Origin: Buchnera aphidicola (Brevicoryne brassicae)
GTDB lineage: Bacteria > Pseudomonadota > Gammaproteobacteria > Enterobacterales > Enterobacteriaceae
NCBI RefSeq assembly: GCF_005082825.1
Contig: NZ_CP034882.1
Coordinates: 281,932-345,931 of the forward strand
Length of the DNA stretch: 64,000 bases
Reading direction: 5' to 3'
Shown: in pieces, positions 33,843 to 34,788 of the stretch
Position numbering within the stretch: position 1 is the first letter of the stretch
How the letters are laid out: the number at the start of each line of letters is the position of its first letter
Made by a program: the position numbers and the translations under genes
Notes under the pieces: model-generated
Seen by the model: only the letters and a program-made list of their open reading frames with translations
Told to the model about the DNA's origin: nothing
Databases searched by the model: none

Positions 33843-34637
33843 TTAAACATAGCATTCGCGTATTTTTTCAGTAATTAACCTAATGATTTTTGGGCTGCTA
33901 GTTAGATTTCCAGAATGACAATTATTGTTTTCATGTCCTCCTGTAAAATCACTAATTAAGCAACCCGCTTCTCTTACTTGTAACTTTCCTGCTATAAAAT
34001 TACTAGGATTTAGATTAAAGTCAAATAAACAATCTATTCTTCCGGCTGCGACATAAGCCAAATCAAGTACTGTAGAACCAGTGGATCTAAAAGAAATTCC
34101 ACATAAAATTAATTTTTTATATATTTCAAAATAGTAAAATGATTGATCATAAATATGATTAGGTAGATTAACGGCAACTGTAGTATATTTTAAAGTGTTA
34201 ATACTACTGCATCTTGTTCTATATCCATTTAACTGAGATCCTTGTCCTTTTACGGCAGTAAACAAATCATTTCTCAAAGGATCATATATTACGGAAATTT
34301 CCGTCTTTTTTTTTACAATTACAGCAATAGAAATACAGAAATGTGGAAAATTTTTAATAAAATTTTTCTTTCCATCTAGTTCATTAATAATCCAGATAGT
34401 AGTTTTTTCATTTTTTTTAAAAATTATATTTTCATTTTTATTTAAAATAATATGACGAGGATAAGATTTGTAAATAATTTCACTAATTATTTTATATGTT
34501 TTATACATGATATTTTTTATAAATATTTTGTTTTTTTCTATATCTTCTTTCATGAATTTTTGTGTATCATAGTTTTGAATAATAATGTTTCCTCCTTTTC
34601 GTACTGCACGAATCGCAATATTTAACATCGGATGCAT
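33843..34637 (-). CDS. suhB: SuhB family protein (inositol monophosphatase fold) with lost metal ligands
   Basis: E. coli SuhB has inositol monophosphatase activity and also acts as a Nus factor in rRNA transcription antitermination. The 264 residues (E. coli 267) align along their full length: GQGSQLNGYR, FRSTGSTVLDLAYVAAGR and VREAGCLISDFTGGH are clear. The metal ligands are mostly replaced. TEES is NKNE (66-69), IDPLDGTTNF is INELDGKKNF (Asn85; only Asp88 is kept), and WDFAAGEL is SNFIAGKL (Asn213). Phosphatase activity is therefore unlikely, and retention probably reflects the RNA polymerase/NusA role. Confidence 0.93.
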   Translation of the reverse strand: MHPMLNIAIRAVRKGGNIIIQNYDTQKFMKEDIEKNKIFIKNIMYKTYKIISEIIYKSYPRHIILNKNENIIFKKNEKTTIWIINELDGKKNFIKNFPHFCISIAVIVKKKTEISVIYDPLRNDLFTAVKGQGSQLNGYRTRCSSINTLKYTTVAVNLPNHIYDQSFYYFEIYKKLILCGISFRSTGSTVLDLAYVAAGRIDCLFDFNLNPSNFIAGKLQVREAGCLISDFTGGHENNNCHSGNLTSSPKIIRLITEKIRECYV

Positions 34638-34788
34638 TTAAATCTCCTAAATTTTTAAATTTATCAAAATAATATCATAATTTAAATATCTTTAATATTT
34701 TAATCATAAAAAAACGATTAATTTACTTTAATAAGTATACTTGAAAAGTAGTAAAATAATTTTTACTAAATTTATTTAGGATTTTCTT

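Follow-up and report, generated by a model that had tools for sequence, protein, structure and literature searches.

SuhB of Buchnera from Brevicoryne brassicae has lost most of its metal ligands and is very probably kept as a non-catalytic Nus factor

SuhB proteins are mostly annotated as inositol phosphatases, although their vital role is the making of ribosomal RNA. The window analysed here, a whole stretch of 64,000 nucleotides from Buchnera aphidicola (Brevicoryne brassicae), contains a suhB gene whose product lacks most of the metal ligands of an inositol monophosphatase (IMPase), which raises the question of what the protein is kept for. The gene encodes an intact product of 264 amino acids; the plus strand of the same interval has many stops. 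The product matched the family model PF00459 (E 4e-38), and its best match among solved PDB chains was E. coli SuhB (2qfl, E 6.5e-69), so that the fold is retained, as the initial annotation had claimed. The best family model was the NCBIfam equivalog PRK10757 (263.5 bits, under its cut-off of 332). Across the genus, suhB adjoins rlmN and topA: among 30 flanked loci from 36 genomes, with neighbours counted only if they passed a length filter, rlmN was found in 30/30 and the 3' part of topA in 23/30. By both best match and gene place, the product is the SuhB orthologue. The mapped sites are collected in Table 1.

Table 1. Location of suhB and of selected residues in the window (E. coli SuhB numbering)
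Feature	Position	Strand	Basis
suhB, IMPase-fold protein with most metal ligands gone	33843..34637	-	ORF, family and PDB matches
Ribosome-binding site AGGAG, just before ATG	34644..34648	-	by eye
Met at the E. coli D44 position (mobile loop)	34506..34508	-	alignment
Lys (AAA) replacing metal ligand E67	34437..34439	-	alignment
Asn (AAT) replacing metal ligand D84	34383..34385	-	alignment
Asp (GAT) at D87, sole metal-ligand side chain kept	34374..34376	-	alignment
Lys-Lys replacing T89-T90	34365..34370	-	alignment
Asn at N91; kept in 55/55 reduced-set SuhB that lost ligands; Glu in 12 aligned CysQ	34362..34364	-	
Arg at R139; candidate for Nus function, present in 98% of ligand-losing SuhB	34218..34220	-	
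Arg at R141; candidate for Nus function, present in 98% of ligand-losing SuhB	34212..34214	-	
Asn (AAT) replacing metal ligand D212	33999..34001	-	alignment
Glu at E222; kept in 55/55 reduced-set SuhB that lost ligands; Ala in 11/12 aligned CysQ	33969..33971	-	
Arg at the K251 position (NusA AR2 contact in E. coli)	33879..33881	-	alignment
Thr at the L254 position (NusA AR2 contact in E. coli)	33870..33872	-	alignment

The metals of human IMPase are bound by Glu70, Asp90, Asp93, Asp220 and a backbone carbonyl (PMC2080633), in agreement with the ligand list of the initial annotation. Alignment to E. coli SuhB showed that the window protein carries M44, K67, N84, D87, K89, K90 and N212, with Ser-Asn in place of W211-D212. 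Three of the four carboxylate ligands (E67, D84 and D212) are thus replaced and D87 is the sole survivor. The proposal that most metal ligands had been lost is therefore borne out, and the motif changes described with it (a first Glu region without its Glu, here Lys; Asn for the first Asp; KK for TT; SN for WD) agree with the alignment. The loss of D44 is an additional change, absent from that earlier list. The D44 position has a role in metal site 3, and T90 corresponds to the Thr that activates water in IMPases. The inositol monophosphatases (PF00459; human IMPA1 and IMPA2, and M. tuberculosis SuhB) have the fold and many framework residues in common with the window protein; whereas of their ligands E67, D84, D87 and D212, it has D87 alone. 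Judged from these residues, the window SuhB would not be an active IMPase, and its Mg-dependent phosphatase activity has probably been lost. Mimicry of a metal by K67 through pairing with D87 was also considered, and inspection by eye gave no support for it.

The same changes were found throughout the genus. E67, D84 and D44 are kept in none of the 36 genomes and D212 in 2, whereas D87 is kept in 35. The suhB frame is open in all 36 (two stop a few residues early), and the ligand loss is therefore not the error of one strain. The replaced loop stays conserved within the genus, with N84 in 34/36 and D87 in 35/36, and K67 is found in 31/36. All of 17 named Buchnera SuhB, selected from a longer database listing, lack both E67 and D84; their hosts belong to Aphidinae and Eriosomatinae, and to Periphyllus and Anoecia. 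Of the 51 database proteins outside the 36 genomes that scored best, all ranked ahead of the free-living type, D84 survives in one (P0009) and E67 in another (P0024), and no protein has both.

At the level of the family, 379 of 392 genomes have an IMPase-type match. None of the other 13 exceeds 0.5 Mb, and two of the 379 (G168 and G173) have CysQ-like matches only. Active-site residues were compared between two sets. The larger set comprised every family or order genome surveyed of at least 1.65 Mb (n = 54). The reduced set was chosen by eye as one or two genomes per genus below 2 Mb plus the larger G143, G220, G247 and G113 (59 genomes; G143 and G220 for their weak SuhB score); residue counts exclude G168 and G173 (no SuhB) as well as G385 and G220 (broken frames) and include the window genome, giving 56. 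At least one metal ligand was lost in 55 of these 56 mostly reduced genomes versus 5 of the 54 larger ones, Asp-to-Glu changes being scored as loss though Glu might still bind metal. Counted over the four ligands plus D44, the reduced set keeps none in 10 genomes, one in 22, two in 15, three in 8 and four in 1. Its sole SuhB with all four metal ligands (G110, L134) has Ala at D44. In the larger set, 48 genomes keep all five residues, G079 lacks D44 only, and G080, G062, G068, G060 and G085 have lost metal ligands.

The losses differ between lineages. The SuhB of Sodalis glossinidius has K67 as its sole change; two clusters of Malihini olakiniferum differ from each other (N44 and N84 in one, G84 and N212 in the other), and the site is intact in Symbiopectobacterium and Sodalis sp. 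dw_96. In Moritella, two named SuhB share N87 and E212, to which one of the two adds K67; N87, E212 and K67 were all seen in the Moritella genomes near 5 Mb (G060 and G085; L196 and L218). Moritella leads a free marine life, and site loss is therefore not confined to symbionts. A SuhB tree reconstructed without the active-site columns required at least nine changes between intact and dead states, at least five of them forced by starred branches; the tree was a quick build with long branches and odd composition, and the number of changes is therefore unsure. A pattern scan of genome contigs for relatives gave one distant Lentisphaerae match, which was uninformative. By residue comparison, site loss is a repeated outcome in symbiont genomes, with a few larger genomes including Moritella, and it is broader than first supposed. 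Some aphid subfamilies have symbionts that lost suhB altogether (PMC11188193), and the role is therefore dispensable there.

CysQ, which has the same fold and is encoded in the same genomes, served as a control. The EE, DP(L/I)DGT and WDTAAG motifs, or a near form, are kept in 30/30 genus CysQ read, and cysQ is intact in 33 of 36 genomes. It is broken in G014, and no cysQ match exceeded the cut-off in G002 or G026; suhB is intact in all three. The CysQ of the window genome (G000:C1:598992-599738) belongs to the same superfamily and is under the same mutational pressure as SuhB; unlike SuhB, it retains EE, DPLDGT and WDTAAG. CysQ-type proteins of 19 other reduced genomes keep EE and DP(L/I/M)DGT in 20/20, these including one cut piece without a visible distal WD motif and one other IMPase-like protein.

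These observations are best explained if SuhB is a pseudo-phosphatase kept for a structural role in the rRNA transcription complex, which we consider very probable. The E. coli SuhB (PDB 6ib8 and 6tqn) is a Nus factor of rrn antitermination with a working metal site and IMPase activity; whereas E67, D84, D212, D44 and T89-T90 are replaced in the window protein and L254 is Thr. According to PMC6614801, E. coli SuhB binds NusA AR2 via K251 and L254, enters the rrn complex by way of nut RNA, is needed for NusB/E to integrate stably and suppresses termination; it was also described as a hub in contact with NusA, S10 and NusG (PMC10250234). The initial annotation noted that catalysis is reported to be dispensable in vivo. 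IMPase-defective E. coli mutants are free of the cold-sensitive growth defect of suhB loss (PMC4807359), and the suhB reaction is unconnected to biomass in a Buchnera metabolic model (PMC2649895). Since catalysis is unneeded and the reaction unused in that model, mutation would have removed the active site while selection held the scaffold. Most likely, a dimeric SuhB hub would hold NusA, NusG and NusE(S10)-NusB near the RNA exit of RNA polymerase; the held NusE(S10)-NusB would sit on boxA of the rRNA leader, and the leader would pair with the trailer, so that the 16S rRNA may fold and be processed properly. M. tuberculosis SuhB dimerises on binding Mg (PMC2080633), whereas the window SuhB would have to dimerise without the metal site; a metal-free dimer, with working contacts to NusA and the Nus complex, is thus presumed for the symbiont protein.

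The partners are present across the genus, with NusA and NusB each in 36/36 genomes and AR2 in frame in 29 of 30 NusA read (L067 in the window genome). In the nusA of G027 (L054), the frame stops ahead of AR2, close to nine consecutive A, and AR2 continues in another frame; this might be a sequencing error, a real frameshift, or a frameshift bridged by polymerase slippage. The 16S leaders of relatives contain boxA within one mismatch in 12/12 read and, by eye, boxC within one; no 16S leader of the window genome itself could be located in its assembly, and both boxes were thus seen in relatives only. Residue 251 is basic in 36/36 genus SuhB; whereas residue 254 is Thr in 27, including the window protein, and Ala in 5, and the AR2 contact may therefore differ in the genus. 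For E. coli, the combined K251A and L254A exchange costs more than three orders of AR2 affinity, although SuhB can enter the complex without AR2 (PMC6614801).

Where SuhB is absent, the Nus set is usually damaged as well. In a wider set of 72 genomes, 15 lack SuhB; 14 of these have a short NusA or a lost or broken NusB versus 8 of the 55 with SuhB (p 2e-8; NusA was counted as whole with a frame of at least 490 aa, and G220 and G385 were omitted). With one genome per SuhB-less genus the figure is 5/6 against the same 55 genomes (p 0.001), so that genera are here compared with genomes. In a direct search, with TGA translated as Trp so that an inner TGA does not cut frames, none of the 18 short-NusA genomes read had AR2; 11 of these lack SuhB and 7 have it. 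AR2 was seen in G205 and G173 and in 29 of a further 30 NusA loci of reduced genomes, and the one locus without it belongs to the 18. Residue 251 is K or R in 40/49 genomes whose NusA is full-length versus 2/7 where it is short (p 0.008). Among leader-read genomes, boxC within three mismatches was found in 12/13 with SuhB versus 5/14 without, and boxA within one mismatch in 12/13 versus 7/14. All of these counts and p values take genomes as they stand, ignoring kinship and genome size.

Several single genomes are of note in the same survey. G168 and G173 lack SuhB, have a broken or absent NusB and an intact CysQ, and one of the two genomes is of 1.2 Mb. Within genus g91, G133, G258, G402 and G456 have neither SuhB nor the NusA AR2; G335 has lost AR2 and still has the SuhB frame, and is perhaps an intermediate stage. 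In genus g133 (G175, G284, G356 and G416), the NusA match of every genome contains three to four inner TGA codons but lacks any other stop, a hint that TGA may encode an amino acid in these genomes.

The co-loss also bears on the possibility that SuhB is kept for another non-catalytic role, such as countering RNase III or binding other proteins. E. coli suhB is genetically tied to rnc (PMC4807359), and eight genomes keep SuhB despite a damaged NusA C-terminus or NusB. Conversely, G205 (95% complete, 8% contaminated) lacks SuhB though its NusA and NusB are whole; neither boxA nor boxC was recognisable in its leader. SuhB retention is therefore not strictly tied to the Nus set. However, the absence of SuhB goes with NusA or NusB damage in all but one case, and boxA and boxC persist in the leaders of the genus; another such role seems unlikely.

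Selection was analysed with a codon model in seven genomes, picked for having loci of all five genes compared. The omega was 0.055 for suhB, 0.042 for nusA, 0.058 for the 3' part of topA, 0.076 for rlmN and 0.089 for cysQ; because synonymous sites are well diverged and AT-biased, absolute values are rough and the gene-to-gene comparison is what counts. The log likelihood for suhB was -2841.7 versus -3162.8 when omega was set to 1 and kappa kept constant, a difference of 321 log units, and 61 of 267 columns are invariant within the genus. The gene is under strong purifying selection; relaxation over the entire gene, which the initial annotation had named as a result that would overturn its reading, with dN/dS as a check, was not found. 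Together with the lost ligands and the activity loss that the residues imply, this supports the earlier reading of the gene as a natural separation-of-function allele.

The conserved columns tell which residues persist once the ligands go. For 81 columns at least 90% conserved in the 48 intact larger-genome SuhB, conservation was scored in the 56 SuhB of the reduced set. The least kept are, in order, E67 (14%), D44 (18%), R184 (18%), A188 (18%), T89 (20%), E68 (21%), G70, A214, V40, D84 (23%), E205, D212 (27%), D38 and W211, which are mostly metal or substrate residues and their neighbours. The ligands plus D44 are less kept than the remaining columns (Mann-Whitney one-sided p 0.0014, columns taken as independent), D87 being the exception (27th among the least kept, 61%). 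W81, N91, P97 and E222 are kept at 100%. Among 16 conserved acidic columns, E222, E123, D201, D118 and D191 are kept at 84-100%, and D229, E48 and D181 at 71%, 55% and 52%; since these three are only partly kept and D87 stands at 61%, the contrast between active site and rest is not perfectly clean. Y59, N91, P97 and E222 are invariant in the 55 ligand-losing SuhB, with R139, R141 and G130 at 98% and H62 at 95%; at these eight positions the 12 aligned CysQ mostly carry other letters. The five ligand-losing SuhB from large genomes also keep N91, P97, R139, R141, E222 and K251.

General decay, in which a weakly selected SuhB is on its way to being lost and damage shows first in the active site, could account for part of this pattern. 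Nearly half of the changes at D44, E67, D84, D87 and D212 in the reduced set (95/200) are D to N or E to K, which are single G-to-A steps in the direction of mutation in these genomes, and suhB is absent or broken in some lineages. However, an omega no higher than that of the neighbours, open frames throughout the genus with many invariant columns, the acidic columns kept elsewhere and the conservation of the old loop all argue against decay, which we regard as quite improbable. An altered enzyme, working with other residues, another metal or another substrate, is very improbable: the D-G..N-F loop with D87 is conserved in the genus and the frequent Lys at 67 could be a new arrangement, but only one of the four carboxylate ligands and neither Thr is left, and the replacements vary by lineage (N/Y/H/I/T/E/S at 84; K/Q/N/I/A/G/D at 67) with no common new site.

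The reading of SuhB as a non-catalytic Nus factor might be extended to the purpose of the site in free-living cells. There the site could mainly gate dimerisation, and hence rRNA transcription, via Mg or a phosphorylated metabolite, and lineages in a steady intracellular setting, as well as Moritella, would have repeatedly removed the gate to obtain a constitutive, metal-free Nus hub. The site is whole in 48 of 54 larger genomes though phosphatase-defective E. coli is free of the growth defect of suhB loss (PMC4807359), and it can go early in host restriction, the other residues read being intact in S. glossinidius. This extension is speculative and, on balance, rather doubtful. If it is true, Y59, H62, N91, P97, G130, R139, R141 and E222 would mark the Nus-function part of the protein.

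The role of E. coli SuhB in rRNA transcription has already been published; for a repeated natural loss of its active site, a literature search of mostly open-access coverage found no published announcement among the entries listed. S. glossinidius and Moritella provide other natural SuhB with changed metal ligands; these have fewer changes than the window protein, and K251 and L254 are kept there. The separation-of-function experiment would thus have been run several times by nature, with the enzyme part dropped and the scaffold retained. These results suggest that the label inositol monophosphatase on these Buchnera proteins names an activity that may no longer be there. What the active site does in free-living cells becomes open to testing, and the residues kept without catalysis should mark the Nus-function surface.
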